Below, in pieces: positions 11,496 through 51,843 of a stretch of 64,000 nucleotides of DNA (positions within the stretch are counted from its first letter, which is position 1; each line of letters starts with the position of its first letter). The stretch spans positions 62,001 through 126,000 of IMG/VR virus record IMGVR_UViG_3300003690_000002. One strand, 5' to 3'. The DNA comes from a virus. The translations under genes and the position numbers were made by a program. The notes under the pieces are model-generated. The model saw only the letters and a program-made list of their open reading frames with translations. It was not told where the DNA came from and did not search any database.

Positions 11496-12353
11496 TCATT
11501 TATTTGTCGTACTTATCGCACGACCTTTAAGTTTTTCCCAATCTTTTTCTGGGCGGACTTCTAAATTTTTATACCATATAGCCCTAAGCACAATTGGGTC
11601 AATATTTAAGCTTTCTGCAGTTTTAATTAATGCATTTAAATCTTTTGGGAAACAAGAACCGCCGAAACCAGCTTTTCCATCTGGACCTGGTACTGAAAAG
11701 TGGGTTTTACCTAGTCTTTTATCGTATAAACTATATTCTATAACTTTATCATAATCTATGTTAACTTTTTCACATATTTGTTTGATTTCATTAGAAAAGC
11801 TTACTTTCAGAGCAAGAAAACAATTTGTAAAGTATTTTACCATTTCTGCAGTATCAGATCCGGTTTTAATTAAAACAGTTTCTGGAAAGATCTTTCGATA
11901 CAAATTTTTAACTTTTGTTGAAGCCGGTCGGGGTCCGCCGATTACAATTCTTGTTTGGTTTTTAAAATCATTAATAAAGTTTGCTTCTGTTAAAAACTCT
12001 GGGTTAAATACAATTTGAATATTTTTGCATTCTCTATTCAAATTTTGTGTTGTTCCTGGTGGCACAGTCGACTTAATAATCACAACATGATTTGCTCTTT
12101 GTGTTTCGGATACTTTATCTATTTCATATACAGCTTCTTTAACAATAGACAAATCACAAGAACCATCTTCTCTCATAGGAGTCGGCAAGCAAATAAAAAC
12201 TATATTAACTTTCTTGCAAAGCTCTTCTAATGAATTGCATGTAGAGTGTTTAAACTTATCATAAGTTTCTACTTCTAATTTTTCTTTAAATCCCTCTTTG
12301 ATAGCAGTTCCAACAAAGCCTTGCCCAACAATCCCAATATTTTTAAAATTCAT
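11496..12353 (-). CDS. UDP-glucose/GDP-mannose 6-dehydrogenase family protein (short form)
   Basis: 285 residues. NAD-binding G-x-G-x-x-G at residues 9-14 (V-G-Q-G-F-V-G-T), then I-C-L-P-T-P-M, S-T-V-P-P-G-T-T, N-P-E-F-L-T-E and the catalytic region G-G-S-C-F-P-K-D with the nucleophile Cys. Family members oxidise the C6 alcohol of a nucleotide sugar to the uronic acid. At 285 residues it has the NAD and central domains but not the usual C-terminal UDP-binding domain (typical length 400-450), so its substrate binding or activity may differ. It is the last gene of the glycan cluster and overlaps the upstream epimerase by 11 bp. Confidence 0.85.
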   Translation of the reverse strand: MNFKNIGIVGQGFVGTAIKEGFKEKLEVETYDKFKHSTCNSLEELCKKVNIVFICLPTPMREDGSCDLSIVKEAVYEIDKVSETQRANHVVIIKSTVPPGTTQNLNRECKNIQIVFNPEFLTEANFINDFKNQTRIVIGGPRPASTKVKNLYRKIFPETVLIKTGSDTAEMVKYFTNCFLALKVSFSNEIKQICEKVNIDYDKVIEYSLYDKRLGKTHFSVPGPDGKAGFGGSCFPKDLNALIKTAESLNIDPIVLRAIWYKNLEVRPEKDWEKLKGRAISTTNK

Positions 12354-13224
12354 TTTTTAATCTCTTAAAACACTCATTGATCCCTTCAATTATATTCACT
12401 TTAGGTTTCCATCCTAACTCTCTCAATGGCAGTGTATTGGCTTGTGTATATAATACGTCGCCTTTACGCTCTTCTATATATTGAAATTTTACTTCTGGAA
12501 AATGAGTTAAAACAATATTTTTAATTTCATTTAGAGAAATATTTGAACCTGTCCCTACATCAAAATGTTCGCCACAAAAATTTTCTTCGTGTTCCATGGC
12601 AAATATATTTGCAAAAACAACGTCCTTTATGTGAGCCATATCTCTTCTTTGTTCTCCAGTTCCAGTAATATAAAGACAATAATTATTTCTAATACATGCC
12701 ATAAAATTTGCTATAGCTGTTGGATATGCTCCCTCTGCTTGTTGATCAGGAGAGTAAACATTAAAATACCGCAAAGAAACCGTATCTAGTTGATATAATT
12801 CAGAATATAGTTTACATTCCATTTCAGATATTAATTTTTGTAGCCCATATGGACTATTTGGTCCTTTCCCATTCCCAACGACAGATGATGATCCTGAATA
12901 TATCACTCTTTTTGCCCCAACTTTTTTAGCAAAATTTAAAACATAACTTGTTGTTAAAACATTATTTTGCATTGTAGATACAGGGTTTTCAATACTATAT
13001 GGAACTCTTGGGATGCATGCTAGGTGAAAAACATATTCTGGTTTAAACTCCCAGTAATGTGGGTGAAATCTGCCACTACCGTCACTATATTCCTTGAGGT
13101 CTTTGAGAATATCATGATCCTCCTTGAGATCAATTCCCTGCACTTCGTGCCCTAATTCTTTTAATTTTTTATATAGATGTGAACCTATGTAACCTTTATG
13201 ACCGGTTACTAAACATTTTGTCAT
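12343..13224 (-). CDS. NAD-dependent sugar epimerase/dehydratase (extended SDR)
   Basis: 293 residues. N-terminal G-H-K-G-Y-I-G-S gives the Rossmann G-x-x-G-x-x-G; the S-G-S-S-S-V strand and the catalytic Y-x-x-x-K (Y-G-L-Q-K) follow at the usual spacing; R-Y-F-N-V-Y-S-P is typical of UDP-glucose 4-epimerase-like enzymes. It likely converts one nucleotide sugar into another. It feeds the uronic-acid and glycosyltransferase steps next to it; the exact substrate cannot be read. Confidence 0.85.
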   Translation of the reverse strand: MTKCLVTGHKGYIGSHLYKKLKELGHEVQGIDLKEDHDILKDLKEYSDGSGRFHPHYWEFKPEYVFHLACIPRVPYSIENPVSTMQNNVLTTSYVLNFAKKVGAKRVIYSGSSSVVGNGKGPNSPYGLQKLISEMECKLYSELYQLDTVSLRYFNVYSPDQQAEGAYPTAIANFMACIRNNYCLYITGTGEQRRDMAHIKDVVFANIFAMEHEENFCGEHFDVGTGSNISLNEIKNIVLTHFPEVKFQYIEERKGDVLYTQANTLPLRELGWKPKVNIIEGINECFKRLKNEF

Positions 13225-13231
13225 GTTTGCC

Positions 13232-13594
13232 TCACTTTAAAATTTCATTTATATCATAAATATAATCATTTTTATCAAAATTTGTTGAACATAGGACCAA
13301 AAGAACATCATCTCCAGTCATATACTCTTGTTCGCCCCAAACCATTTGATCCATGAATATGCAATCGCCTATTTTTAAAATCTTTTCTTCTTCAAGATCT
13401 TTTCCTGTTAATTTAACTCGCACTTGTCCCTTGACACAAATTAAATATTGTTGATCCTGCCTGTGTCCGTGATTTCCTCTGACTTCGCCTTGTGGTACAC
13501 CATAAATGAAATACATTCTCTTTGGTTGAAATTTTAAATCTTTAAACTCAACGTAACTTAAAGCTCCTCTATCTTCTATGTGATGTGATAACAT
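13232..13594 (-). CDS. FdtA/QdtA (WxcM-like) sugar 3,4-ketoisomerase
   Basis: 120 residues, one cupin domain. The motif V-R-G-N-H-G-H-R with later Q-Y-L-I-C-V-K-G matches dTDP-4-keto-6-deoxyglucose 3,4-ketoisomerases (R-G-x-H-A-H-x-x-x-x-Q), whose paired histidines move the keto group. Full length for the family. It overlaps the DegT-type aminotransferase gene by 26 bp; FdtA-FdtB order is the classic pair for making a 3-amino-3,6-dideoxyhexose, which supports the call. Confidence 0.85.
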   Translation of the reverse strand: MLSHHIEDRGALSYVEFKDLKFQPKRMYFIYGVPQGEVRGNHGHRQDQQYLICVKGQVRVKLTGKDLEEEKILKIGDCIFMDQMVWGEQEYMTGDDVLLVLCSTNFDKNDYIYDINEILK

Positions 13595-14507
13595 ATGGCT
13601 TTATCTCCTTGATTATATATTCAATTTCTTTGTTGGTAAGTTTTTCGTGATAGGGTATACTTACTGTTGTTTTATTCTCAAATTCAGATTTTTCAAGACT
13701 CGCATTTTCAACTTTATAACAGTCCATTAAATGTAATGCATTATAATGTATACCGCACTGCACTCCAATTCCTTTCATAAGTTTTAAAAAATTATTATTA
13801 TTTTCCACATTGATTCTATATAAATGCTCACTTGTATTATTTAACTCAAAAGCTAAATTATATCTCTCACGCATTTCTTTAAGTCGATCCATTTTGTTAG
13901 ATAGTTTTTTAAAGTTTTCATTCGCAATAAAAGCCTGGATTGAATTCATATATAATTTCCATCCTGGTAAAATTATTTTTCTTTCCCAACTATTTTCCTC
14001 TAAAGAAATTCCATTTCGAGATAATACTCTCAATTGATCAATTTTGTTTTTATCGTTTGATACTACCATGCCGCCGTCAGAGCTGCCTACTGGTTTTGTG
14101 GGATAAAAACTGAAAATCATTATGTCTTTATCATTGGCTTGTTGTGCAAACTGATCTTTGCATAGCTGTTGTGCAGAATCAATAATTTTATAATCTTCAA
14201 ATCTATGTAAAATATAAGAATTTCCTACCCAGCCTATATCATCTTTATAATTAATTTTATTTCCTGAACATAGAATCGCATTCGCCACCACAGGAGGTAA
14301 AATGCTCGGTATCGTAATGGTAATATCTTTTTGTTCGAATAAAGAAAGAAAAATTGCACTAGTTGCGCTATTCAATGAACATGCATATTTTGCCCCAACA
14401 AAATTAGCGATCTTGTTTTCAAATTCTGTAACCACCTCATCGTGTAAAAGCGGTTGGAATTGTGAAGTATCTACTACATAATCATTAATATGCATTAATT
14501 TAATCAT
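13569..14507 (-). CDS. DegT/DnrJ/EryC1/StrS-family sugar aminotransferase
   Basis: 312 residues. PLP lysine in S-F-Y-P-T-K-P-V-G-S-S-D-G-G; the C-S-L-N-S-A-T-S-A motif near residue 45 binds the cofactor phosphate; I-D-S-A-Q near 120. It is somewhat shorter than the usual 360-400 residues. With the adjacent ketoisomerase it would aminate a 3-keto-6-deoxy sugar (FdtB-like). An AAAGGTGA site precedes the ATG, which overlaps the HAD gene by 4 bp. Confidence 0.85.
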   Translation of the reverse strand: MIKLMHINDYVVDTSQFQPLLHDEVVTEFENKIANFVGAKYACSLNSATSAIFLSLFEQKDITITIPSILPPVVANAILCSGNKINYKDDIGWVGNSYILHRFEDYKIIDSAQQLCKDQFAQQANDKDIMIFSFYPTKPVGSSDGGMVVSNDKNKIDQLRVLSRNGISLEENSWERKIILPGWKLYMNSIQAFIANENFKKLSNKMDRLKEMRERYNLAFELNNTSEHLYRINVENNNNFLKLMKGIGVQCGIHYNALHLMDCYKVENASLEKSEFENKTTVSIPYHEKLTNKEIEYIIKEIKPYVITSHRR

Positions 14508-14815
14508 TTTTCACCTTTAGTATTGAAAAATATTTCAGAATTTATTGCTTTATCACAAATAAAATAATCGTAATGTGGTTTGCCTACCCGAACATCGTGA
14601 TATTTCACGCCCCAAGCACGAAGTTGAGCTTTAGTTAAAGAAAGCCAATTTATTCCTGTTACCGAGCCCCTTGCCGTCCAATATATAATGGTCTCACCCT
14701 CATCATATAGTTTGTTTATTTTCTTAATATTGTCTTTTAACGGCATAGCCTTTTTATAATCTCCATCTGTGTTCATACATATGGTACCATCAATGTCAAT
14801 ATAATAAATTTTCAC
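14504..14815 (-). CDS. Small HAD-superfamily phosphatase-like protein
   Basis: 103 residues. Motif I D-I-D-G-T-I at residues 7-12, motif II W-T-A-R-G, a Lys in V-G-K-P-H and a late D-x-x (I-C-D-K-A), all in HAD order. It has no cap domain, like the sugar-phosphate phosphatases KdsC/NeuA-C and capsule-locus HADs. Between a NeuB-like synthase and an aminotransferase it may dephosphorylate a keto-sugar acid phosphate. It overlaps both neighbours by 1-4 bp. Confidence 0.75.
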   Translation of the reverse strand: MKIYYIDIDGTICMNTDGDYKKAMPLKDNIKKINKLYDEGETIIYWTARGSVTGINWLSLTKAQLRAWGVKYHDVRVGKPHYDYFICDKAINSEIFFNTKGEK

Positions 14816-15666
14816 TAATATCCTCTAAGCTTCTTTCTAATTATTAATTCGCTTTTTGTTACTTTTTTTTCATCACTTCCAAGTATTATATCAATATCTT
14901 TAACTCTTTTATAGAGCATATCCATGGCTATAACTTCCAAACTAGCCCTTTGATCAGTTCCCCACATATTATGTGATAAAGTAATGTGTCTTTCAATTAC
15001 TTTCGCGCCTAACACAGCTGCTATAACTGTGGGTTCTAAATCCTGTTCGTGTCCTGAATATCCAATAACACATCCGTATCTTTTTTTAAGAAATGGAATA
15101 ATTCTTAAATTTAATTCCTTTTTTGGAGTTGGGTAGCTTGAATTTGTATGCATAATTACTGGATTCTTACCTGACTTCATAACTGTATTGACGGCAATAT
15201 CAACCTCTTCTAAAGTAGACATTCCAGTTGACATTATAATTGGCTTATTTGTTCTCGCTGTCTCTATTAATAATTCGGTATTTGTTATTAGTGCCGAGGG
15301 AATTTTTATAAATGGTACGTTGTAATTCATAATAAACTCAAGACTATCCAAATCCCACACAGAGGCTGTCCAGTCAATGGGTTTTTCTAAACAATATTGA
15401 TTTATAGTACTATATGCTTTGTAACCAAATTCAATTTTATGTTTATAATCTATGTAAGCCATGGTACCCCAAGGCGTTTCTCGTAATTTATTTTTTTGAT
15501 GGTTTGGTACGCATATGTCTGGATTACGCTTTTGAAATTTGGCACAATCCCAATTACATGCTGAAACTGCGTCAATAAGTTTTTTTGTCACTTGCATATC
15601 CCCATTGTGATTGATTCCAATTTCTCCAATAAAATATGGATATTTAAGATTTTCAAAATCTACCAT
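14815..15666 (-). CDS. NeuB/SpsE-like nonulosonic acid synthase
   Basis: 283 residues from the ATG at 15666, chosen because GGAGG lies 7-8 bp upstream. The motif G-E-I-G-I-N-H-N-G-D near residue 13, A-K-F-Q-K-R and later I-M-S-T-G-M-S-T, H-T-N-S-S-Y-P and G-Y-S-G-H-E are the hallmark blocks of NeuB TIM-barrel synthases, which condense phosphoenolpyruvate with an N-acyl sugar to make sialic, legionaminic or pseudaminic acids. The C-terminal antifreeze-like SAF domain (about 60 residues) is absent, so it is shorter than the usual 340-350. The next genes (cytidylyltransferase, GT42-like transferase) give the activating and transferring steps. Confidence 0.85.
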   Translation of the reverse strand: MVDFENLKYPYFIGEIGINHNGDMQVTKKLIDAVSACNWDCAKFQKRNPDICVPNHQKNKLRETPWGTMAYIDYKHKIEFGYKAYSTINQYCLEKPIDWTASVWDLDSLEFIMNYNVPFIKIPSALITNTELLIETARTNKPIIMSTGMSTLEEVDIAVNTVMKSGKNPVIMHTNSSYPTPKKELNLRIIPFLKKRYGCVIGYSGHEQDLEPTVIAAVLGAKVIERHITLSHNMWGTDQRASLEVIAMDMLYKRVKDIDIILGSDEKKVTKSELIIRKKLRGY

Positions 15667-16355
15667 ATCGTCCAACCTCCATCTATATTGAATACAGCTC
15701 CAGTCGCGTATGATGAACTATCAGAGCACAAGTATTCGATCATTCCGTTTAGTTCATTAATTTTCATCATACGCTTCAAAGGAGTTTTGCTCTTATAAAG
15801 ATCAATAAATTTTTTACTTTGTTCTGTTGATGGTTTAAAAGTTACCCCACCTGGCGCAATACAATTAACTCTAATATTGGGTGCCAAGTGTACAGCTAAA
15901 TATCTTGTTAATTGAACTACTCCAGACTTTGAAACGCAATATCCAATATGTTTTTCTTTTCCTTCCTCATATAAGGCGGGGTTTGGTGAAACAACTCCAT
16001 AAATTGAAGAAAAATTTATAATAGAACCGCTTTTGTTGTTTCTGGCAAATTCGCGACATACCGAAAATAAACTTAACAAATTTACCTGTAAATAAGAATT
16101 GAGTGAATCTAGTGTTATATCAAATAAATTTGTTGAGTCATCTGCAGCATCAATATGTGGATTTAAAGCATATAAGTTGATTAAATAATCGGCTCTGTTG
16201 TCTTTAAAAAATCTTTTTACAAACCCTTCATCAGTTAAATCATGTCCTAGTTGAAGATCGCAGTGAATTACTTCATATCCTTTAGAAATTAAATAAGAAG
16301 AAGTTTCAGTTCCTATTAGCCCTTCTGAACCAGTTATAATAACTTTCTTATTCAC
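15660..16355 (-). CDS. Short-chain dehydrogenase/reductase (sugar-locus SDR)
   Basis: 231 residues. Classical SDR: G-S-E-G-L-I-G-T at the N-terminus, N-F-S-S-I-Y-G with the catalytic Ser, Y-C-V-S-K with Tyr and Lys, then I-A-P-G-G-V, and the usual C-terminal N-I-D-G-G-W. Members in sialic- or legionaminic-type loci reduce keto groups of sugar or sugar-acid intermediates. Its 3' end carries the Shine-Dalgarno site of the NeuB-like gene, so the two are translationally coupled. Confidence 0.85.
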   Translation of the reverse strand: MNKKVIITGSEGLIGTETSSYLISKGYEVIHCDLQLGHDLTDEGFVKRFFKDNRADYLINLYALNPHIDAADDSTNLFDITLDSLNSYLQVNLLSLFSVCREFARNNKSGSIINFSSIYGVVSPNPALYEEGKEKHIGYCVSKSGVVQLTRYLAVHLAPNIRVNCIAPGGVTFKPSTEQSKKFIDLYKSKTPLKRMMKINELNGMIEYLCSDSSSYATGAVFNIDGGWTIW

Positions 16356-17358
16356 TTGAAGTTCCTAACATTGCGCCTGAAAGGCTTACCTGCGAGCAAT
16401 CTTTAGCCCATTCTCTAAGTTGTTTAACAAAATCAACACCAATATTGTCTGACCAAGTATTACATATTTTTTGAGTAATTGTACCCATAGGGTTTTCTTT
16501 AACGATATCATTAAAATACTCACCATTTAGTCTATTACATGGCAATAAATTAATAAAACTACTAGTAAACATTGCTTCATCACAATCCATGACGTCATAT
16601 GGTTCAAAATTTTTATATACCACTTCTAAATTAATCTGTGGTGCTAAAACTTCAAGCACATACATCATGCTCGAACCCCTGAGCATATTTCTTAATTCGG
16701 GAACTATTAATTTCTCATTCTTTACCATCAAAAAGTTCGCACCAGTGCTTTCTGTGATAAATCCATCTTCGTCGAGCAAAAGAGGCATAGCATCTTTTCC
16801 AAATGTCTTTGTTTGTAAATTTGCCATCTGGTAATGTAACCTACTCCTATTTTTTACCTTGTTTTCTAAAAGTCGCGATGGTATTTGTCTTTGTGATGGT
16901 ATAACAGCATTCGCTCCTGTGTCGTAAAAATGCCCTAAAGATCCAGCAGTTTTATTCAATGGCCATACATTTATAATCCAAGTTGGATCACTCCACGCTT
17001 CTCCTTTTTGTAATTCAAAAACTTCTTTATAAATGGGCAGAGGACCTCTAGAAACATTAATTAAAATACGGCATTCTTCCCCTAAAGAAAAGTGCTCGAT
17101 ATTGCGCTGGAGCGTCTCTTGGCATAAATTATAAACTTCTTTTTTTGATTTTGTAATTGGTATTTGCAAATATCTCATACTTCTAAAAAGTCTATCGATG
17201 TGTTCATCTAAGAGAAAAAATTTATTATTAAAAGTTCTTGCCATTTCAAAAACAGCATCTCCAAACATAAATTGTGAATCGTATATGTGAATCGAAGCTT
17301 TAGATTCGGGCACCCACTCTCCAGAGTGATATGTTACTCTTTCTTTTTTACTGGACAT
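16348..17358 (-). CDS. Class IV (branched-chain/D-amino acid type) aminotransferase
   Basis: 336 residues. The start at 17358 is preferred over 17364 because AGGAG abuts the upstream ATG but sits 6 bp before the downstream one. Fold IV landmarks: F-M-F-G-D-A-V-F-E near residue 35, an L-E-N-K-V-K-N-R segment with the PLP Lys, and E-S-T-G-A-N-F-L. Usual members transaminate branched-chain keto acids or D-Ala. In this setting an amino group on a sugar-derived keto acid or a lipid/amino-acid substituent is possible. Class IV enzymes are unusual in glycan loci. Overlaps the SDR by 8 bp. Confidence 0.8.
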   Translation of the reverse strand: MSSKKERVTYHSGEWVPESKASIHIYDSQFMFGDAVFEMARTFNNKFFLLDEHIDRLFRSMRYLQIPITKSKKEVYNLCQETLQRNIEHFSLGEECRILINVSRGPLPIYKEVFELQKGEAWSDPTWIINVWPLNKTAGSLGHFYDTGANAVIPSQRQIPSRLLENKVKNRSRLHYQMANLQTKTFGKDAMPLLLDEDGFITESTGANFLMVKNEKLIVPELRNMLRGSSMMYVLEVLAPQINLEVVYKNFEPYDVMDCDEAMFTSSFINLLPCNRLNGEYFNDIVKENPMGTITQKICNTWSDNIGVDFVKQLREWAKDCSQVSLSGAMLGTSSE

Positions 17359-17367
17359 ATGCATCTC

Positions 17368-18129
17368 CTAAATTAATCGCTTGTTGAGCTTATTTTGATT
17401 ATCTAAATAATCTTGATGTTTGTGCCTATTAATTAATGCAATCTCTGGTTGCTCATCTATAAGCCTAATCACATCCATTAAAGAGAAATTATAATTTCCC
17501 ATATTATAAAAATATTCAGAAATAGTAGTAAAGAATTTTAAATCCTCTTCGTAATCTAAAGTTGCTCTAATTTCTGGTCTGTTATATTCTTTTGGTACAT
17601 TTTTAAGTAATTTTGTTTTAAACATTTTCATACTTGAAAGAGTAAGCCATGCCGCTTCTGTATCATTAGTGTTTTTAAGCTCGCACACTTTTTTAATCGT
17701 ATCAGTCTTTACACCAAACGTAAATGCTCCACAAATCATATTTTTCTCATCTATTCTAACAAAATCATGTAATTCTCTTTCATATTGTTCAAAGGCTAAA
17801 TCTATTAATTCTGGTTCGCAAAATAAATCGTCGCCGTCAATGTTGACAAAATAATCAATATTATATTGTAAGGCGGCTTTTAGCCATCTATCAAGCTTGT
17901 CTTCTAAGCTTCCTTGAAAAAAATCAATATGATGAGCTTTAGCAATTTCACAAAGTACCCTATCTTCATCCATAGCGCTAGTACATAAAATTATTTTATT
18001 TGTTTTGTTAGATTTTTTAGCTCGCTCTATACAAAATTCAATTGTTTTCTTGCCACAAATTGTTCTAAGTGCTTTATTTGGAAGCCTGGTTGAACCTGTT
18101 CGAACTGTAATAAATATTCCTTTTGTCAT
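17368..18129 (-). CDS. SpsF/NeuA-like acylneuraminate cytidylyltransferase
   Basis: 253 residues starting M-T-K-G-I-F-I-T-V-R-T; GGAGG precedes this ATG, so the 14-residue longer frame is rejected. The N-terminal R-T-G-S-T-R-L-P-N-K replaces the usual R-x-G-S-x-x-x-x-x-K activation loop of CMP-NeuAc and CMP-Kdo synthetases; Y-F-V-N-I-D-G-D-D-L-F-C holds the metal-binding acidic residues. It would attach CMP to the sugar acid made by the NeuB-like enzyme. SpsE and SpsF are likewise paired in Bacillus spore-coat polysaccharide loci. Confidence 0.82.
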   Translation of the reverse strand: MTKGIFITVRTGSTRLPNKALRTICGKKTIEFCIERAKKSNKTNKIILCTSAMDEDRVLCEIAKAHHIDFFQGSLEDKLDRWLKAALQYNIDYFVNIDGDDLFCEPELIDLAFEQYERELHDFVRIDEKNMICGAFTFGVKTDTIKKVCELKNTNDTEAAWLTLSSMKMFKTKLLKNVPKEYNRPEIRATLDYEEDLKFFTTISEYFYNMGNYNFSLMDVIRLIDEQPEIALINRHKHQDYLDNQNKLNKRLI

Positions 18130-18139
18130 AAAGCCTCCA

Positions 18140-19843: not shown

Positions 19844-19869
19844 TGTAAAAACCTAATGTAATTATAACT

Positions 19870-20514
19870 TTAAAATCTACAGACTTTAAGATTTTTTAAT
19901 CCGGGATCAAAAGAAGAGTAAGTAAAATAATGAAATAAAATTTCCGGAAATAAAGATGTTATTGTCTTATGAGAATTTTTTATCTTATTTGAAACTATCT
20001 CATCTTGAGGATCCGCCTCATTATGTCCTAAAAAATATTCTGTTTCGTAAAAATCAATTCCAATTACATATATTTCATCTGCTTTTAATTCTAGGGCGGC
20101 ATGCAATAAAGCCATATCAGAGGAATTTTCAACAATATTCATATATTTCTCTAGAGAATCTGAATGATAATTATACGGTATCTTATACAGGCTTTCGAAA
20201 TTGCGTCCTTTGTATCCAGTTCTCCACCAATTTGTATTTCCATCTGGTCGCAATCTGGCTATGTAGACTTCTTGGACATTAAAATTATTTACAAAATCAT
20301 GATCCAAGCCTGACTCACAAATATTAACTTGTTGAATTATTTTTTTATTTTTTAAAAAATTATGTATTTTTTGATTTTCTTTAACAAATAAATTAAATTC
20401 ATTTATTAATATTACATGATCAAAATCAATATCTAAATTTGAATGATCTATGCGCTCTAGTGAGTTACCCCTGCCGCATATTAATATCTTTATTTTTTCA
20501 GCTGTTTTTTCCAT
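19870..20514 (-). CDS. GT42-like putative sialyltransferase
   Basis: 214 residues. The N-terminus K-I-L-I-C-G-R-G-N-S-L-E-R-I-D mirrors the nucleotide-binding start of Campylobacter Cst-II (K-V-I-I-A-G-N-G-P-S-L-K-E-I-D), recalled from memory, and the later block A-D-E-I-Y-V-I-G-I-D-F-Y matches Cst-II K-E-I-Y-L-S-G-I-D-F-Y. A His follows (Y-F-L-G-H-N), in the place of the general base in the I-G-H segment. Cst-type enzymes move a sialic acid from CMP to an acceptor sugar. The protein is shorter than Cst-II (about 260-290). The call fits well with NeuB-like and NeuA-like genes in the same operon, but the similarity is partial. Confidence 0.65.
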   Translation of the reverse strand: MEKTAEKIKILICGRGNSLERIDHSNLDIDFDHVILINEFNLFVKENQKIHNFLKNKKIIQQVNICESGLDHDFVNNFNVQEVYIARLRPDGNTNWWRTGYKGRNFESLYKIPYNYHSDSLEKYMNIVENSSDMALLHAALELKADEIYVIGIDFYETEYFLGHNEADPQDEIVSNKIKNSHKTITSLFPEILFHYFTYSSFDPGLKNLKVCRF

Positions 20515-24000: not shown

Positions 24001-24665
24001 GCAAACCTTCCCTGCATAATTAACTGATGGGTGGGATTATTACTTGCTGTTTTTCCGGGAGAATAGACCATGTATTGACTAGCGGCTTTTGTAATTTTAT
24101 TCAAATCATAAAAGCATCCAAATCTCTTATCGTAATCATCAAATACCCATATGGGTATTCTACTAGTTGTTTGTAGTTTTTTTAAATTTAAAACATCATT
24201 AATTACAGCGCCTTCTTCATGGGACCCATCTATATAAAAAAGGTCAACTTCTACTCCCAAATCTTCAAGGTGGTCCGCTAAAGCTTTGCTGTCTCCTTGT
24301 ATAAAGGTGGCTTCCTCTTGATATTCTTTTGCATATTTTTTATGATGCACATCTCTTAAATCACAACTCCAAACTTTAGCATCATTTTCTCTGCAATATT
24401 CAGCAAAACTATAAAATTGCCAGCCTTCTGCCGTACCCACCTCAACAATGTTTTTAGCTCCGAACTTCTTCGCAATCAAAGTTAAATAATATGCCCTTTT
24501 AGATATTTTATCAAAAATTGCATCTCTTTCTTGTAGGTTCAAATGGTGAAAAGTAGCTTTATTTATTTGAATAGGTAAATTTATATCATCCCATAATTTT
24601 TGATATCGAGATGGTAAAGTGATATCGTCAAATCTATCATATAATATTTCAATTAAATCAGGCAT
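23997..24665 (-). CDS. Class I SAM-dependent methyltransferase
   Basis: 222 residues. SAM-binding motif I I-V-E-V-G-T-A-E-G-W near residue 71, acidic loop S-C-D-L-R-D and motif V-D-L-F-Y-I-D-G-S-H, as in the macrocin-O-methyltransferase/cephalosporin-hydroxylase group. It may O-methylate a sugar of the glycan. Overlaps the downstream GT gene by 4 bp and the upstream GT2 gene by 8 bp. Confidence 0.8.
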   Translation of the reverse strand: MPDLIEILYDRFDDITLPSRYQKLWDDINLPIQINKATFHHLNLQERDAIFDKISKRAYYLTLIAKKFGAKNIVEVGTAEGWQFYSFAEYCRENDAKVWSCDLRDVHHKKYAKEYQEEATFIQGDSKALADHLEDLGVEVDLFYIDGSHEEGAVINDVLNLKKLQTTSRIPIWVFDDYDKRFGCFYDLNKITKAASQYMVYSPGKTASNNPTHQLIMQGRFA

Positions 24666-25371
24666 TATAACTCCAAGTGTGTTTCTTAATTACAACAGAC
24701 ATTTTTTTTGCTTGTCTGTCTTTATCTTCTCTAGTTAATCCATTATCTCCTTCAAATTCTTTATGGTGAAAAATCATAGCTCTGGGATTAAATTGATATC
24801 CGTATCCTAAATAAGACAATCTCGTAAAAAATTCTTGTCCGCAGCCGCCATACCCCTCAAATCTTTCAGAAAACATACCACAACCAATCCAATCTTTCCG
24901 TAACATGCAACAATTATTCTCGACCAATATTTCACCAATTTGTTTTGGAGAACAGTCGCCATACTTAGTCAACAAATGAGACATTTTAAAATGCATGGGA
25001 TCTTGTGAATCGTGAGAATTTCTGTATCCTCCAGTTAATATTCTATTTTTAACGGACTTTTTATGTTCTTCTACAAACTGAGGGGTTGGAAAACTATCAT
25101 CATCTAAAATAACAACAGCTTTTCCAGATGTTTCTAATATTCCCATGTTTCTTGCTTTCGCAAGACAATACTTATCTGTCTCTTTTGTGTCTATCCACTT
25201 AATGGAGAAATCAGACTTATAACTTTCCAACATTTTAATAGTATTATCTGTTGAGCCATCTATAGCAACAATTACTTCAAAATTTTTGGCTGCTTGCTCT
25301 TTAAATTTATCTAAATTCTGTCTAAGTACGTCGGAGCGATTATATGTAACAATAACTACAGATAATAACAT
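24658..25371 (-). CDS. GT2-family glycosyltransferase
   Basis: 237 residues starting M-L-L-S-V-V-I-V-T-Y-N-R-S; the ATG at 25371 has an AAAGGTGG site just upstream, so the 7-residue longer frame is not used. A-I-D-G-S-T-D-N-T and V-I-L-D-D-D-S-F-P give the GT-A nucleotide and metal sites; G-Y-G-G-C-G-Q-E-F-F is the acceptor-side ED-like motif. Inverting transferase of unknown sugar. Confidence 0.87.
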   Translation of the reverse strand: MLLSVVIVTYNRSDVLRQNLDKFKEQAAKNFEVIVAIDGSTDNTIKMLESYKSDFSIKWIDTKETDKYCLAKARNMGILETSGKAVVILDDDSFPTPQFVEEHKKSVKNRILTGGYRNSHDSQDPMHFKMSHLLTKYGDCSPKQIGEILVENNCCMLRKDWIGCGMFSERFEGYGGCGQEFFTRLSYLGYGYQFNPRAMIFHHKEFEGDNGLTREDKDRQAKKMSVVIKKHTWSYNA

Positions 25372-25372
25372 C

Positions 25373-26065
25373 TTACCACCTTTGTAATTCATAATTGTGT
25401 GGCAACCATTGAAACCAATAGTTGTTTCGTATATCTACATTCGGATATTTAAGAAGATACGATTTTGTAGACAACTTCCACTTGCAATAATAAAAACTCA
25501 ATTGGTCGCGGCGACTAAAGTTTCTAATTTCATCCCACCACATATTTGATAAATTTATTATATCATCAGAATTATGCTTTCTTAATAAAATTGAATTGGC
25601 ACAAAGTCCATTATTTTTTGGATACTCTTCCTTTTTATATTTCTCCATCTGTTTTCGGACTATTTCAGGATTGTCCTTATTATCTAACACAACCATCTTA
25701 GCTTCATCATATATGCACTGCCGACCCTGGTCATGTTCAAATAGAAGCATATTTGCGTTTTTTAAAAAATCTACTTTTTTAAGAAACGAATTAATATCCT
25801 TTTTAATTAAAAAATTTGCATCAATCCATAGACTAATGTCATATTCTTTCAAAAACTCATGAGGCTTTACTTTAAATATCTTAGCGCCCCTAACAGGATC
25901 TTTATGAGCCGATGCTCTATAAACAACTTGCCATATATCTGATTTTACCTCTTTATTATCTGTAAAGCATATATAATCAAAATCATTATTTATAAAAAGA
26001 GGATTTTTTAATGTATCTTTTTTCCCATATATCGCAGTATAAACAACTTTTTTATTCATATACAC
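25373..26065 (-). CDS. TOD1/MUCI70-like (DUF616) glycosyltransferase-like protein
   Basis: 230 residues. Begins K-V-V-Y-T-A-I-Y-G-K-K-D-T-L, then Y-I-C-F-T-D-N, S-L-W-I-D-A-N-F and H-D-Q-G-R-Q-C-I-Y-D-E-A, the run of motifs of DUF616/TOD1 proteins, which are plant and bacterial glycosyltransferase-like domains. Abuts the GT2 gene with 1 bp between the coding regions. Confidence 0.75.
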   Translation of the reverse strand: MYMNKKVVYTAIYGKKDTLKNPLFINNDFDYICFTDNKEVKSDIWQVVYRASAHKDPVRGAKIFKVKPHEFLKEYDISLWIDANFLIKKDINSFLKKVDFLKNANMLLFEHDQGRQCIYDEAKMVVLDNKDNPEIVRKQMEKYKKEEYPKNNGLCANSILLRKHNSDDIINLSNMWWDEIRNFSRRDQLSFYYCKWKLSTKSYLLKYPNVDIRNNYWFQWLPHNYELQRW

Positions 26066-26750
26066 CTCTTTTATTTATAAAAAAAGACGTATCTTTGGGT
26101 ATTTTAAAGCCCATCTCGCTTCTTTTCAGTTTGCCAATATTTATTTTTCTTCTTCTAGCTAGTTCAAATATTGTTTTTCTTTCTGTCCCGACATGAACAA
26201 CTCCTTTCATTTCCGACAGGGTATGATTTAAAATTATTGGTGCAATAATATCAACATAATCTCTGCTTGTATATTGATCAACAAATGCTTTTTCATATGG
26301 AAAAATATGCTCACAAAAACTGGTTCTAATGATTAATGAATTATTGTAAGTCTTTGTTGCCAACTCTCCCGCAGCCTTCGTCATAGAATATATATTAATT
26401 GGATTAATAGAATCTGTTGTTTTATATCTACCCTCTGTTCCATCAAATACATAATCAGTCGAAATATATACAAACCTAGTTGAGTGTTCCTGGCACAGAT
26501 CTATAAGATTTACTGTACCGAGAATATTTGTTTGTCTTGCCAAGTCTGGTCTATTATCGCATCTAGGGGGAGATGTGAAGGCAGCAGCATGTAAAACTAT
26601 ATCTGGCGTGTATTTTAAAAGATGCTTTTCACATATTTTCTTATTTGTAATATCCATTTCTTTATGAGACGGGGCTAAGATATTATCATATAAGTGTTGT
26701 ATCTCCTGCCCTAACAAACCACTACCCCCAGTTAATAATATTTTTTTCAT
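26052..26750 (-). CDS. dTDP-4-dehydrorhamnose reductase-like protein
   Basis: 232 residues. G-G-S-G-L-L-G-Q at the N-terminus, D-I-V-L-H-A-A-A-F-T, V-Y-I-S-T-D-Y-V-F-D-G and catalytic Y-S-M-T-K, all RmlD/RfbD hallmarks. Shorter than usual (about 290), so the C-terminal substrate domain is reduced. It fits with the RmlC homologue two genes upstream. RmlA and RmlB are not in the window, so host dTDP-4-keto-6-deoxyglucose would be used. Confidence 0.82.
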   Translation of the reverse strand: MKKILLTGGSGLLGQEIQHLYDNILAPSHKEMDITNKKICEKHLLKYTPDIVLHAAAFTSPPRCDNRPDLARQTNILGTVNLIDLCQEHSTRFVYISTDYVFDGTEGRYKTTDSINPINIYSMTKAAGELATKTYNNSLIIRTSFCEHIFPYEKAFVDQYTSRDYVDIIAPIILNHTLSEMKGVVHVGTERKTIFELARRRKINIGKLKRSEMGFKIPKDTSFFINKRGVYE

Positions 26751-27718
26751 TTCATTTCTAATTCTTTAAAGGTTTGAATATTGTAATATTTTTTGTCTAA
26801 AAAATTATAATCTTCTATTGGGTCAATATTGGCTAATATCTTCCGTACCGATTCGCGGGGGGAGGTCTTGGAGACAAAATCAAGTTCAATTTTTGCTTTT
26901 ACATTAGATGCTTTATAGTTTCTAATGTCTTGGCGATTTAATGTCTCTATTTGAATATCATATCCATGACTATTCAATTCTTCTTTTATTTCATCAGCTA
27001 AGCGACCAATTGTATAATTATCATAACATAAATTATATATACCACTATTTTCAAGATTTGCTTCAATTGCTCTTATATAACCCGTTGCAACATCATCAAT
27101 ATCGATTAGCGGTCTCCATAAATTTGGATTATGAACAACTATTTTCCCTTCAGTTAAAGCAGTTTTTGTCATAGCGTTAACAACCAAATCATATCTCATT
27201 CGCGGAGACCAGCCGCCTACAGTTCCCTTTCTTAAAATAATTGGTCTAAAATTCTTACTTGTCAAATTTAAAATAGCCTGTTCTCCAATTAATTTAGAAA
27301 TACCATATGGGTATTGCGGAGCAACTGGGGATTCTTCATCCATTAGTTCGTTTGCTGTATATCCGTAAATACTACACGAACTAGCATAAATAAAGCGAGA
27401 TATTCCCGCTCGTTTGGCTGCATATGCCAAATATGCTGGTACTGCACTATTTTCTACAAAATTCATTGATGGATTAAAATCTGCCATTGGGTCATTGGAA
27501 AGCCCTGCCATAAAAACAACTACATCATATTTTTCTGCATTCAACTCCTGGTGGGAGACATTCATAATATTTTTTTCTTTAATTTTTGCCGCTTTTGGTA
27601 AAAAATTACCAAACCACATAAGGTCAACTACAGTAACATCATATTTTCTTTTTACTAATTTATGAACTAGGTGGGTGCCGACATATCCGGCGCCACCGGC
27701 TACGAGAATCTTTTTCAT
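26747..27718 (-). CDS. NAD-dependent epimerase/dehydratase (extended SDR)
   Basis: 323 residues. G-G-A-G-Y-V-G-T N-terminal motif, Y-A-S-S-C-S-I-Y-G active-site Ser strand and catalytic Y-P-Y-G-I-S-K; R-K-G-T-V-G-G-W-S-P follows. Full-length extended SDR. It overlaps the RmlD-like gene by 4 bp. The substrate is unknown; a nucleotide-hexose 4-epimerase or 4,6-dehydratase is possible. Confidence 0.85.
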   Translation of the reverse strand: MKKILVAGGAGYVGTHLVHKLVKRKYDVTVVDLMWFGNFLPKAAKIKEKNIMNVSHQELNAEKYDVVVFMAGLSNDPMADFNPSMNFVENSAVPAYLAYAAKRAGISRFIYASSCSIYGYTANELMDEESPVAPQYPYGISKLIGEQAILNLTSKNFRPIILRKGTVGGWSPRMRYDLVVNAMTKTALTEGKIVVHNPNLWRPLIDIDDVATGYIRAIEANLENSGIYNLCYDNYTIGRLADEIKEELNSHGYDIQIETLNRQDIRNYKASNVKAKIELDFVSKTSPRESVRKILANIDPIEDYNFLDKKYYNIQTFKELEMK

Positions 27719-27738
27719 TTTATTGTTTTATCTTCCTT

Positions 27739-28302
27739 TTAATAGAACTTTGGGTCTCTATCATATTCTAAAAAATTTTGTGCTTCTTGATCCTTCAAGG
27801 ACAAAACAGCATCTTTTTTATCTATACCCCATTTGATATTTAAAAATTTATCAAATGGATTAATACCAGATTCTCCATTTTGATTATAAACACTAGAGCA
27901 TTTATATAAAACAACAGTATCTTCTTCGAGTGCTAGGATTCCATGAGCAAATCCGGGTGGTACCCATAATTGTTTGTGATTTTTATCTGTTAATGTCACT
28001 GACATGTATTCTCCATAAGTTACAGAATCTTTTCTTATGTCGACAATAATATCTTTCACAGATCCCCTTGTTGCCCTTACAAGTTTTCCCATTGGTTCGT
28101 CCCACTGGTAATGTAACCCTCTTATGACATTCTTTTTTGAGATTGATTGATTATCTTGTTGCATATTCTCTGTAAACCCTAGATCGAAAAGATTGGCTAC
28201 ATTATAAGATTCATAAAAATATCCACGATCATCATCAAAAATGCGCGGAATAATAATCAAAACTCCTCTGAATTTAGTTTTTTTAATTTCAAATTTATTC
28301 AT
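27739..28302 (-). CDS. rfbC: dTDP-4-dehydrorhamnose 3,5-epimerase
   Basis: 187 residues from the ATG at 28302, which has AAAAAGGG about 8 bp upstream. RmlC landmarks in order: R-G-Y-F-Y-E-S-Y-N, R-G-L-H-Y-Q-W-D-E-P with the catalytic His, G-S-V-K-D-I-I-V-D-I-R, and W-V-P-P-G-F-A-H-G-I. It epimerises C3 and C5 of dTDP-4-keto-6-deoxyglucose. Full length. Confidence 0.92.
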   Translation of the reverse strand: MNKFEIKKTKFRGVLIIIPRIFDDDRGYFYESYNVANLFDLGFTENMQQDNQSISKKNVIRGLHYQWDEPMGKLVRATRGSVKDIIVDIRKDSVTYGEYMSVTLTDKNHKQLWVPPGFAHGILALEEDTVVLYKCSSVYNQNGESGINPFDKFLNIKWGIDKKDAVLSLKDQEAQNFLEYDRDPKFY

Positions 28303-28316
28303 CTGCAGCCCTTTTT

Positions 28317-29348
28317 TCAAAAAATCAAGCTAGGTATTTTTTCTTTCCATAGCTTTGTGAATAATGCATTGTCGCTTCTGTATTGGTTGTCTATCTTTTT
28401 TTCAGTTTTATTTGAAAAATGGTTAAATGATTCATCATGGAAAAAATGAATATCTTTTCCAAAATACATTACTTTTCTATTCTGTTCCAATGCTCGCAAG
28501 CATAAATCCACATCTTGCAAAATTTTTGACAAAGATGGATTAAGCCCCCCAATGGATATAAACCACTCCAAATCAATTATTTGTAAAGCACCAGTAACAA
28601 AATCAGTTCCAATGTCGCAATTTATTCGTGGATCATTTTTATTCGTAAACCTTCGATAGTGTATTGGCACAAAAGAACCATTTGGTGATGAAATCCATCT
28701 TGAGCCGCCAAACTGAACTGTTCCTTTGGATTTCCCGTCTCTCATTGATGGGAAATGCGTTAAAATATTTATACTATCTTTATCATTATGCAGACTTTCA
28801 TGTGGATATAATAATTTTGACCCTGAGATGACTGCTCCGGCTTCTATGTGTTTTTTTAAGAAAGTATCGAAGTATTCAAGTTTATCTATCCACAAATCAC
28901 TATTCCAAAGTATAATTTTTTTCACGCCTGATTTATAAGCTAATAGTGCAGGAATATTATTCAACATCGAAAAATTAAATCCTTTATCATTATCAATACG
29001 TAAATAGTTTACATCGTATTTGTTGCAAACTTTTTCAATATCTTCGTCCGATCTATCATCAACGACTATTAAATTGATGGTATCAAAAAAATTATTTATT
29101 TTAAAATTTAAAAGTGTATAGTTTAGTAAATTTATATTATCTTTAATCGGCAATATTACAAGCGGTTTTGTGTTGTCAAATTGCTTTTTTTGTTTCCATA
29201 TGCATATATATAAAATATTTTTTTTAGAATATTTAGAATCAGCAACATGAACTAATTCATCTTGGTGGGTTTCAAATTCTTTTTCTATAATAAAATTTTC
29301 GTCTTCAAATAAATTACAACTAAAAAATTTAACATTTTTATTTTTCAT
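28317..29348 (-). CDS. GT2-like glycosyltransferase (rhamnosyltransferase-like)
   Basis: 343 residues. After an unusual ~60-residue N-terminal extension comes the GT-A fold: L-V-I-L-P-I-K-D-N, L-I-V-V-D-D-R-S-D-E-D, I-I-L-W-N-S-D-L-W-I-D metal motif, and D-V-D-L-C-L-R-A near residue 295, the ED-like catalytic motif (D-x-D-L-C-x-R) of rhamnosyl- and galactofuranosyl-transferases. Overlaps neighbours by 4 bp on each side. Confidence 0.82.
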   Translation of the reverse strand: MKNKNVKFFSCNLFEDENFIIEKEFETHQDELVHVADSKYSKKNILYICIWKQKKQFDNTKPLVILPIKDNINLLNYTLLNFKINNFFDTINLIVVDDRSDEDIEKVCNKYDVNYLRIDNDKGFNFSMLNNIPALLAYKSGVKKIILWNSDLWIDKLEYFDTFLKKHIEAGAVISGSKLLYPHESLHNDKDSINILTHFPSMRDGKSKGTVQFGGSRWISSPNGSFVPIHYRRFTNKNDPRINCDIGTDFVTGALQIIDLEWFISIGGLNPSLSKILQDVDLCLRALEQNRKVMYFGKDIHFFHDESFNHFSNKTEKKIDNQYRSDNALFTKLWKEKIPSLIF

Positions 29349-30574
29349 ATAATGACAATATCATCATTTTCATCGGATATAAATAATTGTGCAAATTTCT
29401 CATATTGTTTTTTTTCAGTAAAGTTTTCAAGAAGCCATTGTTGTAGTTCTTTTGCTTGTTTTACAAATCTTCCATAATCTTTTCGAACTTCGCGAAGTTT
29501 CATCTTATAACTACCTTGTTTCGCATAACACCATTGTGAATCTTGTTGCAAAACTCCTTCCCAAACAGCCTCTTTTGGTATGGGTGCCAAATCATAATCA
29601 ATTTTTGCAAAAAACGCTTTAGTTTTCATTCTACCATTTTTTTCAACTGCTTTATAAAGAAAGTCACAATAGCCACTCCAGTCAACAGCTAAAATCGGTA
29701 ATGCATTATATGCAGCTTCGAATAGTGGTAAACCAAAACCCTCACCATGAGTTATCGAAATCAAAGCTTTAATTTTTGGATGCAAATAAAGAGCCGTCAT
29801 TTCCTCATCTGTCATATCTCCATGTAATAAATAAACTTTACATTTTCTTTGCGGATATTCTTTTAATAAAGATTCAACTGTTTGTTCGGTATGATATTTA
29901 TCGATATTTGAGTTATTTTTAATATTAAGTTTAAGTACTAATCCTATTTGTTTATCGATAAATTCTTCAACAAACCATTTAACTGTATTTACAATATTTT
30001 TTCTTGGACCCCATTGTGCAACTGTTAAAAAATTAAAATTTGTTTTAAAATCTAAAGATATATCTGCTGATTTATGATTTCTAACTGGATAGTGTACAAC
30101 ATGAATCGGGGTCTTGCATTTTAAATGTACTTCTTGCTCTGTTTGTGGATGTTTAGCAGAATAAACTGTATTCTCATAAACAGATTTTGAATGATTTGAA
30201 ATTGTTATAATTTGATCCATAAGAGAGGCTTTTTCTATCCACACTGGGGCTACTTTTGTTGTCTCAATCCCTGCTGTCACACCAATATTTATGGAAGCTA
30301 ATTTTTCCCATTCATTTGGGATCGTAACTTGAAACGATATATCATATTGACCATTCTTCTGTTGGTGTTCGATAGTTTTGGCTAGTATACTATCCATCCA
30401 CCTTCTTTCTTCATTATCTTCATATAACCAGCCGGTTTGTCCCCATCCTGTGGTTATTAAATGTATGTCAAAGTGTTCTTCATACGCCCTTAAAGCTCTT
30501 AAAACAAACCTTGTATGTTCACCATACCCACTTCTACTTAAAGCGGGACCTCTTACTAAAGCTTTTTTTCTCAT
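29345..30574 (-). CDS. GT4-family glycosyltransferase
   Basis: 409 residues. The C-terminal Rossmann half has the GT4 E-x7-E motif: S-I-T-H-G-E-G-F-G-L-P-L-F-E-A-A-Y-N-A-L-P-I, with V-A-Q-W-G-P-R-K-N near residue 210. Retaining GT-B enzyme. Overlaps the paralogous neighbour by 4 bp. Confidence 0.87.
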   Translation of the reverse strand: MRKKALVRGPALSRSGYGEHTRFVLRALRAYEEHFDIHLITTGWGQTGWLYEDNEERRWMDSILAKTIEHQQKNGQYDISFQVTIPNEWEKLASINIGVTAGIETTKVAPVWIEKASLMDQIITISNHSKSVYENTVYSAKHPQTEQEVHLKCKTPIHVVHYPVRNHKSADISLDFKTNFNFLTVAQWGPRKNIVNTVKWFVEEFIDKQIGLVLKLNIKNNSNIDKYHTEQTVESLLKEYPQRKCKVYLLHGDMTDEEMTALYLHPKIKALISITHGEGFGLPLFEAAYNALPILAVDWSGYCDFLYKAVEKNGRMKTKAFFAKIDYDLAPIPKEAVWEGVLQQDSQWCYAKQGSYKMKLREVRKDYGRFVKQAKELQQWLLENFTEKKQYEKFAQLFISDENDDIVII

Positions 30575-31836
30575 ATTATCTCTTTAAAAGTCCATAATTT
30601 ATAATTTTCTCTTGTTGACCATGATCCATATTCATTATATACAAAAGTAAAAACTTCATCCCATTTTTTAATAAAATTTTCAAAATTATAATTTTTTGTA
30701 ACATGTTTACGACCCAGTGTGCCAATTTTATTTCTCTCTTCTTTTGACATGTTATAAATTTTAAGTAAAGCATCAACCACATCTTTACCATTTAATCTAT
30801 CTTCGTAAATCCATGGAATATCCTGGGAGCCAATTATTGCTTTTGAAGCTGGCTCAATGCCGACACCAAACCAATTTTCACCATCAGTTACTTGTTCTTG
30901 CAATCCTCCAGTCATATTAACAATAACTGGTGTTCCGCATGATAATGATTCTAAAGTTGATAGCCCAAAACCCTCTGCATCAGATACATTTATAGTACAA
31001 TCTGCCATATTATAAAGCATTGATAAGTGCTCAATTGATAATTTCTGTTTTGAAAATAAAACTTGACCTTGTTTTAATTGTAAGTACTCTAATATTTCTT
31101 CTAGATCTTGCCCATTTGGATCTTTAGGGTCAGTGTGCATTATTAAACAAGCATTGTCGTGTCCAACAATATCTAAAAACTCTTTAAACCAAAAAATTAA
31201 ACTGCCGCTTTGTTTTCTTCGTGCGTTTCTATTATTCCAAAAGAAAACTAATTTATCTGGATTTGAATCATCTGAAAAATGTTCTTTTTTAAATCCTAAA
31301 ATATCTTCTTCTGGTATTGTTCGAAAAATATTTGTATCAACCGCGTGTGGAAGATACATGCTTTTAACTTTTGGTGCGACATTCTTAACAATCTTGTCCG
31401 TAAGTTTAGATATACTAACGATTAAATCATTTGACTCATAAAACTTCTTATTAAAAACTGGATATGGGTAATTATCCCACACGTGGTAATACACCATTGG
31501 GATTAAAGGTCTAATCTCGTTTTCTATCATCCACAACCACCCCCAAAATCGTGGATCTGTCATAAGCCAAAGAATATCTGGTCTTTCATTACGTATTACA
31601 GAACGAACAACATCTTGTGTGCCATATCCATCGACTGGATGGATTATCCAATCATCTTTAAATTCTTCGACTCGAACAGGTTGGTGGTTTTCATGTTTAA
31701 TTGCTCCACCAAGGCTTATAAATTTATATTTTCCTGTGCGAAGCATTCCCTCGATCATATATTTAGATTGTGTTCCAATCCCGGAGGGGGAAAGTGGGTG
31801 GTCCCCCAATGTTAAAATTTTAATTTTTTTGGTCAT
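30571..31836 (-). CDS. GT4-family glycosyltransferase
   Basis: 421 residues. G-D-H-P-L-S-P-S-G-I-G-T at the N-terminus binds the acceptor side; C-terminal D-A-E-G-F-G-L-S-T-L-E-S-L-S-C-G-T-P-V-I is the GT4 donor motif. It is the first gene of the glycan cluster in transcription order and starts 14 bp after the RecB-like gene stop. Confidence 0.88.
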   Translation of the reverse strand: MTKKIKILTLGDHPLSPSGIGTQSKYMIEGMLRTGKYKFISLGGAIKHENHQPVRVEEFKDDWIIHPVDGYGTQDVVRSVIRNERPDILWLMTDPRFWGWLWMIENEIRPLIPMVYYHVWDNYPYPVFNKKFYESNDLIVSISKLTDKIVKNVAPKVKSMYLPHAVDTNIFRTIPEEDILGFKKEHFSDDSNPDKLVFFWNNRNARRKQSGSLIFWFKEFLDIVGHDNACLIMHTDPKDPNGQDLEEILEYLQLKQGQVLFSKQKLSIEHLSMLYNMADCTINVSDAEGFGLSTLESLSCGTPVIVNMTGGLQEQVTDGENWFGVGIEPASKAIIGSQDIPWIYEDRLNGKDVVDALLKIYNMSKEERNKIGTLGRKHVTKNYNFENFIKKWDEVFTFVYNEYGSWSTRENYKLWTFKEII

Positions 31837-51838: not shown

Positions 51839-51843
51839 TAACC

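Follow-up and report, generated by a model that had tools for sequence, protein, structure and literature searches.

Large lipopolysaccharide (LPS) gene clusters are known from the T4-like cyanophages P-SSM2, S-SSM7, and S-SM2; the genome papers left open whether such clusters of marine phages function and what they modify, and "stuffer DNA" was included among the possibilities (PMC3037559). The capsid protein of chloroviruses is glycosylated in the cytoplasm by the viruses themselves (PMC7019647). The present analysis concerns a 24-gene glycan-synthesis locus at positions 11496 to 31836 of a 64,000-nucleotide stretch of phage DNA (the window), which corresponds to bases 62001 to 126000 of the 186,398-base IMG/VR record IMGVR_UViG_3300003690_000002 (G000). 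A preliminary description of the window had treated the locus as one unit, much larger than the usual glycosyl gene complement of T4-like phages. In size it does lie far above T4's own glucosyltransferase set, but P-SSM2, S-SSM7, S-SM2, and pelagimyophages provide precedents. As to the unit, the locus divides into two core genes, gtA and gtB, which are universal in the phage lineage, and 22 further genes that are the cargo of a hypervariable, exchangeable site.

IMG/VR holds at least 286 relatives of the PhoH protein of G000, and the locus comparison used the best 80 of these 286; all compared contigs are metagenomic. The whole stretch from PhoH to the late sigma gene was read in 34 contigs, and five more with related cargo were read from gtA onward; two of these 39 contigs, G028 and G029, are identical across the PhoH-to-sigma stretch. 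In the fetched loci, the left flank runs in the order PhoH, small genes, PD-(D/E)XK nuclease, gtA, and gtB, whereas the right flank of the island is formed by p91, an FmdB-like gene, p105, and late sigma. In the window, these elements are located as follows.

34044-35360, minus strand: PhoH, anchoring the conserved flank on the left (61-82% identity among the best 80 of 286 IMG/VR relatives)
31850-32626, minus strand: PD-(D/E)XK nuclease, conserved flank gene adjoining gtA (PDDEXK_1, E = 3e-14; in 69 of 80 loci)
30571-31836, minus strand: gtA, core glycosyltransferase of GT4 type (Glycos_transf_1; in 40 of 40 genomes)
29345-30574, minus strand: gtB, core glycosyltransferase (Glycos_transf_1 at the cut-off; in 40 of 40 genomes)
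11496-29348, minus strand: variable island of 22 cargo genes, bounded by gtB and p91 (site empty in two genomes, G008 and G014; 21 of the 22 genes in the same order in G037)
11224-11499, minus strand: p91, small conserved protein bordering the island on the right (in 35 of 35 genomes)
10989-11330, minus strand: FmdB-like zinc-ribbon protein, right flank (phrog_1076, E = 1e-5)
10675-10992, minus strand: p105, right flank (in 34 of 35 genomes)
10002-10685, minus strand: T4-type late sigma factor, right anchor (phrog_234, E = 7e-5; in 35 of 36 records searched, G000 included)

All 40 genomes, i.e., the 39 contigs and G000 itself, display the same succession of gtA, gtB, island, p91 (or its neighbours), and late sigma; the search for late sigma covered 35 contigs besides G000 and found it in 34. 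An exception concerns the orientation of PhoH, which differs in G012 relative to the block. Two genomes, G008 and G014, have an empty site, where p91 comes right after gtB and the island measures 0.2 kb. The occupied sites carry islands of 4.7 to 24.6 kb, the largest in G006, and the median of all 40 genomes is 14.7 kb. Occurring in every genome, even those with empty sites, gtA and gtB are core phage genes, which leaves 22 cargo genes. Flavobacterium phage immuto and Microcystis phage Mel-JY01 carry a homologous block of nuclease, gtA, and gtB; they are the nearest cultured relatives by core glycosyltransferases and the only named phage records with a gtB match. The best solved relative of gtA is the chlorovirus protein B736L (E = 3.5e-15), which is also the sole solved relative of gtB at 1e-5.

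Judged from core protein identity and shared genes, the cargo is uncoupled from phage descent, and cassettes are exchanged wholesale at the fixed site. When core protein identity was set against the fraction of cargo genes shared, the Spearman coefficient was 0.08 over 703 genome pairs, which are not independent of one another. The clearest evidence for replacement comes from pairs such as G001 and G043, which are 87.3% identical in their core proteins and share only 6% of their cargo. At the other extreme, G000 and G037, the latter a contig of 203 kb, are 56.6% identical in the core and share 88% of the cargo, with 21 of the 22 G000 cargo genes present in G037 in the same order; note that G037 is among the five contigs picked for related cargo, so that its sharing is not a random draw. 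Three large tail-region proteins of G000 have no match in G037, although the island is shared. Codon positions 1, 2, and 3 differ between the two genomes at 29, 18, and 56% of sites, respectively, a pattern that indicates purifying selection. Taken together, the fixed site, the empty sites, the uncoupling of cargo from descent, and purifying selection show that these clusters are retained and transmitted as functional units.

The island genes are intact. Among 574 island open reading frames (ORFs) of at least 80 residues in 34 contigs and the window's own island, a single one is antisense, and the coding density of occupied islands is about 0.9 to 1.0. The 574 ORFs fall into 224 clusters, 139 of which are single, and the cassettes swapped between viruses comprise 7 to 30 sugar-building genes. 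In a sample of 100 island proteins, the commonest were sugar epimerases/dehydratases, DegT aminotransferases, NeuB, glycosyltransferases, and methyltransferases. The preliminary description had noted the lack of a flippase, a polymerase, and a priming transferase and had taken it to suggest that host or virion glycans are modified and that no full polysaccharide is made. Consistently, neither Wzx (PF01943) nor a priming transferase (PF02397) was detected in any of 31 records (the full 186 kb of G000, well beyond the window, and 30 relatives), with positive controls detected, and of the 660 proteins encoded in 38 occupied islands, none contains two or more transmembrane (TM)-like segments, the same scan detecting proteins with 8 and 5 segments elsewhere in G000. 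For the polymerase, the claim holds by TM count, which yielded no multi-TM Wzy candidate among the 660 island proteins, a Wzy family scan not having been run; GtrA and Gtr-type membrane proteins are missing by the same absence of a multi-TM island protein. The absence of Wzx, priming transferase, and multi-TM island proteins thus supports the argument that the machinery for a full exported polysaccharide is lacking.

The carrier is a common, large aquatic lineage of the T4 superfamily for which we found no description. Its PhoH protein is less than 40% identical to that of any of 50,697 named phage records. The first 51 bases of G000 recur as its last 51, a direct terminal repeat as in a complete, circularly assembled genome. 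The terminase (phrog_2), tail sheath (phrog_23), and single-strand-binding protein match PHROG families so named; a late-sigma-like protein (phrog_234) and a T4-type S77 prohead protease (17614-18081 of G000) are also encoded. Phage genes, among them the terminase, sheath, and protease genes, flank the island on both sides. Chimerism and decayed reading frames had been named beforehand as findings that would speak against the cluster: a chimeric contig is ruled out by the flanks conserved in 39 other contigs and by the terminal repeat, and none of the 24 ORFs is decayed.

As described beforehand, 24 consecutive glycan genes on one strand, all of them open minus-strand ORFs, fill positions 11496 to 31836. 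Their coupling by overlaps had been slightly overstated, as 18 of the 23 junctions overlap (by 1 to 32 bases), whereas five have gaps of 3 to 26 bases. Nearly all 24 genes were assigned by Pfam to nucleotide-sugar enzymes or glycosyltransferases. The assignments bear out the enzymes originally listed, namely, a UDP-glucose/GDP-mannose dehydrogenase, three NAD-epimerase-type proteins, an FdtA-type ketoisomerase, a DegT aminotransferase, NeuB, a cytidylyltransferase, RmlC, a short RmlD-like protein, and a methyltransferase; four enzymes had been omitted, i.e., the B12-type radical S-adenosylmethionine (SAM) enzyme, the class IV aminotransferase, the short-chain dehydrogenase (SDR), and the small HAD phosphatase. 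Of about nine glycosyltransferases claimed, seven are recognized by Pfam, and two further putative ones are located at 28317-29348 and 19870-20514. The latter, originally called sialyltransferase-like, is a weak candidate for a GT42-type transferase, with similarity to CST-I and CST-II below the cut-off and a negative profile search. The T4 late-promoter motif TATAAATA is not enriched (11 found versus 12 expected), and promoter and terminator scans gave counts at chance level. The cargo genes are listed below.

28317-29348, minus strand: probable glycosyltransferase, GT-A like by eye (no Pfam match at 0.05; proposed from sequence and position)
27739-28320, minus strand: RmlC, deoxythymidine diphosphate-sugar 3,5-epimerase (PF00908, E = 1.6e-58)
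26747-27718, minus strand: NAD-dependent sugar epimerase/dehydratase (PF01370, E = 6e-34)
26052-26750, minus strand: RmlD-like reductase, C-terminally short (PF04321, E = 1e-37, profile positions 2-150 of 287)
25373-26065, minus strand: TOD1/MUCI70-type glycosyltransferase (PF04765, E = 2.7e-20)
24658-25392, minus strand: glycosyltransferase family 2 (PF00535, E = 2.8e-23)
23997-24665, minus strand: methyltransferase (PF13578, E = 1.4e-14)
23071-24000, minus strand: glycosyltransferase (Glyco_trans_1_2, PF13524, E = 4.8e-23)
22185-23084, minus strand: glycosyltransferase family 15-like (PF01793, E = 7e-18)
21431-22174, minus strand: glycosyltransferase family 8 (PF01501, E = 3e-10)
20490-21434, minus strand: sugar 4,6-dehydratase/epimerase, the sole cargo gene lacking a collinear G037 counterpart (PF16363, E = 1.4e-44)
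19870-20514, minus strand: possible nonulosonyl transferase, GT42-like (CST-I, E = 0.0035, below cut-off; CST-II, 0.005; five-sequence profile negative)
18140-19843, minus strand: B12-type radical SAM enzyme (PF04055, E = 3e-17; 13 viral relatives, 49-75%)
17368-18171, minus strand: cytidylyltransferase of NeuA/KdsB/SpsF type (PF02348, E = 5e-20; best named models KdsB, far under cut-offs)
16348-17364, minus strand: class IV aminotransferase (PF01063, E = 1e-39)
15660-16355, minus strand: SDR (PF13561, E = 2.4e-32)
14815-15675, minus strand: NeuB-type synthase, too short for an SAF domain (PF03102, E = 2.6e-66; below the NeuB and PseI equivalog cut-offs)
14504-14815, minus strand: small HAD-type phosphatase (EcbF-BcbF, E = 9e-9, below cut-off; phrog_1238, E = 6e-27)
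13569-14507, minus strand: DegT/DnrJ/EryC1 sugar aminotransferase (PF01041, E = 7e-33)
13232-13594, minus strand: FdtA-type 3,4-ketoisomerase (PF05523, E = 1e-29)
12343-13224, minus strand: NAD-dependent sugar epimerase (PF01370, E = 8.5e-45)
11496-12353, minus strand: short nucleotide-sugar 6-dehydrogenase with the catalytic-cysteine motif GFGGSCFPKD (TIGR03026 above cut-off; PF00984, E = 4e-28)

With this set of enzymes, the island could oxidize a nucleoside diphosphate (NDP)-hexose, isomerize and aminate a keto-sugar (FdtA plus DegT), and make deoxy-sugars (RmlC, the RmlD-like protein, and the dehydratase). A nonulosonate-like sugar acid activated by cytidine monophosphate (CMP) would probably result from NeuB and the cytidylyltransferase, and the SDR, class IV aminotransferase, radical SAM enzyme, and HAD phosphatase probably belong to the same route. 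Of this pathway, a NeuB-family synthase, rare across phage records (3 of 50,697), and a cytidylyltransferase of the CMP-sugar-acid type without an equivalog-level match are present. Because none of the 24 genes was identified as an NDP-hexose pyrophosphorylase, the host would supply the nucleotide sugars from which synthesis starts. A smaller module composed of radical SAM enzyme, cytidylyltransferase, aminotransferase, SDR, NeuB, and HAD phosphatase recurs in several other islands. A fresh capture of these genes from a host was rejected, because the bacterial radical SAM relatives show about 45 to 57% identity (well-matched loci) versus 68 to 75% between most phages. The bacterial relatives belong to the candidate phyla radiation (CPR), Roseibium, Planctomycetota, and marine alphaproteobacteria, some lying near NeuB and SDR genes, and the island's cassette was found in none of the bacterial radical SAM loci examined. 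As a separate observation, radical SAM relatives are scattered across CPR, Roseibium, Planctomycetota, Acidobacteriota, Nitrospirae, and a nanoarchaeote (contigs L169-L196), many of them within 10 kb of NeuB; these neighbourhoods in bacteria and archaea possibly represent an uncharacterised sugar-acid pathway.

For the sugars made, their acceptor, and the advantage to the phage, we infer the following as the best-supported reading and assign it a probability of roughly 45%: the island would be an exchangeable, serotype-like glycan locus, and its oligosaccharide would be assembled in the cytoplasm on an acceptor borne by the phage, probably a protein of the virion. The constant soluble pair gtA/gtB would provide a core phage function, and the slot between gtB and p91 would hold one of many alternative cassettes, here of 22 genes. 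The cassette would make modified NDP-sugars (uronic, deoxy, and 3-amino) and probably a CMP-activated nonulosonate-like sugar, which its own glycosyltransferases would assemble, and cassettes would move as units, presumably via recombination between the conserved flanks. Assembly on the phage-borne acceptor would yield particles with differing glycan coats. That particles do wear such exchangeable, phage-made coats ("phage serotypes"), produced by the constant gtA/gtB enzymes together with a cassette that distant phages trade whole, as bacteria do with capsule loci, is a proposal we hold tentatively, at a little under even odds. Several points weigh against the virion coat and the exchange behind it. 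A glycan on the virion of this lineage is a prediction from the genes, and the match to B736L is weak evidence for the acceptor, GT4 enzymes being so widespread. Published opinion on similar clusters prefers the host surface (PMC7029224, PMC7824862), and soluble glycosyltransferases can also use host lipid-linked precursors, which the host then exports. Finally, the median identity between G000 and G037 is 62% for the island stretch versus 46% for other matched proteins genome-wide, a contrast that slower enzyme evolution may explain in part.

The closest competitor, possible but in our judgement falling well short of an even chance, is remodelling of the host surface, whereby cassette sugars would be added in the cytoplasm to precursors of host LPS or O antigen and exported by the host's flippase and ligase, and the changed surface would exclude competing phages during infection. 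The enzymes resemble those of O-antigen and capsule pathways, soluble glycosyltransferases could act on undecaprenyl-linked acceptors of the host, and the P-SSM2-type (PMC7824862) and pelagimyophage (PMC7029224) clusters have been read in this way. In contrast to phage gtrABC serotype conversion, however, none of the islands encodes a flippase or a membrane glycosyltransferase, priming transferases included. A virion acceptor is slightly favoured over the host surface, since all enzymes are soluble and gtA/gtB are constant even at empty sites; since gtA/gtB homologues occur in phages of hosts as unlike as Flavobacterium and Microcystis, where they would face very different host glycans; since the closest solved relative, B736L, comes from viruses that glycosylate their own capsid protein; and since G037 shares the island but not the three large tail-region proteins, thus pairing the same cargo with different tail-region genes.

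Hypermodification of DNA, in which gtA/gtB would glycosylate modified phage bases, the island would elaborate the sugar, and the genome would be shielded from host nucleases, appears improbable. T4-like phages do glycosylate their DNA, the constant pair adjoins a nuclease gene, and immuto carries genes for 7-deazaguanine DNA modification; yet a thymidylate-synthase-type hydroxymethylase was found in none of 31 genomes, with positive controls detected, and nucleotide-sugar pathways this large are unknown for DNA. A Tet/JBP search gave no match, but its positive control also went undetected. Passenger DNA that fills the head for packaging without a selected function, posed as a possibility for the cyanophage LPS clusters (PMC3037559) and compatible with the empty sites of G008 and G014, which mark the slot as dispensable, is largely refuted and very improbable in view of the open frames, dense coding and near-absence of antisense ORFs, the functionally restricted cargo, and the comparison of G000 with G037, in which gene order is preserved and differences at third codon positions are about three times as frequent as at second positions. 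If the virion is indeed the acceptor, phages would own a serotype system. The constant gtA/gtB pair offers one experimental target, and the cultured relative immuto possesses a homologous pair; titles and abstracts in the literature revealed no functional treatment of the immuto island.

Several other features of the genome were recorded. Beside PhoH, a trypsin-like peptidase (PF13365) with a lipoprotein-like N terminus by eye is encoded on the plus strand (window 35391-36221), nearly all other genes lying on the opposite strand; relatives of it adjoin PhoH in 58 of 80 loci, mostly antisense to PhoH. About 14 otherwise different G000 proteins, all on the gene strand, open with the peptide MKLLLENWRxYLxE (about 11 minus-strand ORFs at window 50088-58393 and, outside the window, at G000 139547 and 147280-148121), and G037 has five such proteins. 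Given the presence of the T4-type S77 prohead protease (G000 17614-18081), these peptides look like capsid-targeting sequences of internal head proteins, which may be injected. Seven proteins begin with another shared N-terminal peptide, MKLTKxKLKxIIKEEL, and one of them adjoins the prohead protease gene (minus-strand start at window 61029; outside the window at G000 17532 and 142289-144047). A one-piece transfer-messenger RNA, unusual for a phage, is located on the minus strand at window 38982-39366 (RF00023, 96 bits; tag ANDNVEFDYAMAA). Also on the minus strand, window 36563-38090 holds a dehydrogenase weakly similar to GAPDH and semialdehyde dehydrogenases that overlaps a peptide-deformylase-like gene (by eye), and window 6739-9705 encodes a 988-residue tail-region protein with a weak GDSL/SGNH esterase match and, by eye, a lysozyme-like C-terminal part. 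Outside the window, GroEL-like, DnaK-like, and tubulin/FtsZ-like proteins were noted by eye at G000 151254-152822, 173907-175784, and 179122-179976, respectively.

Among known systems, virion glycosylation of the chlorovirus/mycobacteriophage type resembles the present locus in its virus-encoded soluble cytoplasmic glycosyltransferases, chlorovirus B736L being the best solved relative of gtA/gtB; however, chloroviruses are eukaryotic viruses with a capsid-protein target, whereas a virion target is proposed for the present enzymes. Bacterial O-antigen and capsule loci of the Wzx/Wzy type are likewise built from invariant flanks around a central, exchangeable set of sugar and glycosyltransferase genes, but the present locus is phage-borne and devoid of Wzx, priming, or other membrane genes, and it differs from phage gtrABC serotype conversion in having no multi-TM island protein. 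The immuto island also comprises nuclease, gtA, and gtB, followed by glycosyltransferases, WecE, an epimerase, and a methyltransferase; its core glycosyltransferases, however, are just 31 to 34% identical to those of G000, its cargo differs, and its right flank is unmatched. The host recognition cluster of pelagimyophages is similarly hypervariable and rich in glycosyltransferases (PMC7029224), but there, between VrlC and gp14, tail fibres and sugar genes are mixed, whereas the cargo sampled here consists mostly of sugar and glycan genes. The LPS clusters of P-SSM2, S-SSM7, and S-SM2, that of P-SSM2 lying partly near phoH, are equally big blocks of nucleotide-sugar and glycosyltransferase genes in marine phages of the T4 superfamily (PMC3037559). 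They appear to belong to another phage lineage, and gtA was not found in the Kyanoviridae record AG-345-L05, although this record has a NeuB cluster. Large glycan clusters in phages were thus already known; new here, and distinct from the cyanophage clusters, is one dedicated slot: its edges are conserved, it adjoins a glycosyltransferase pair present in all compared genomes, two genomes leave it empty, and its cargo does not track phage descent.

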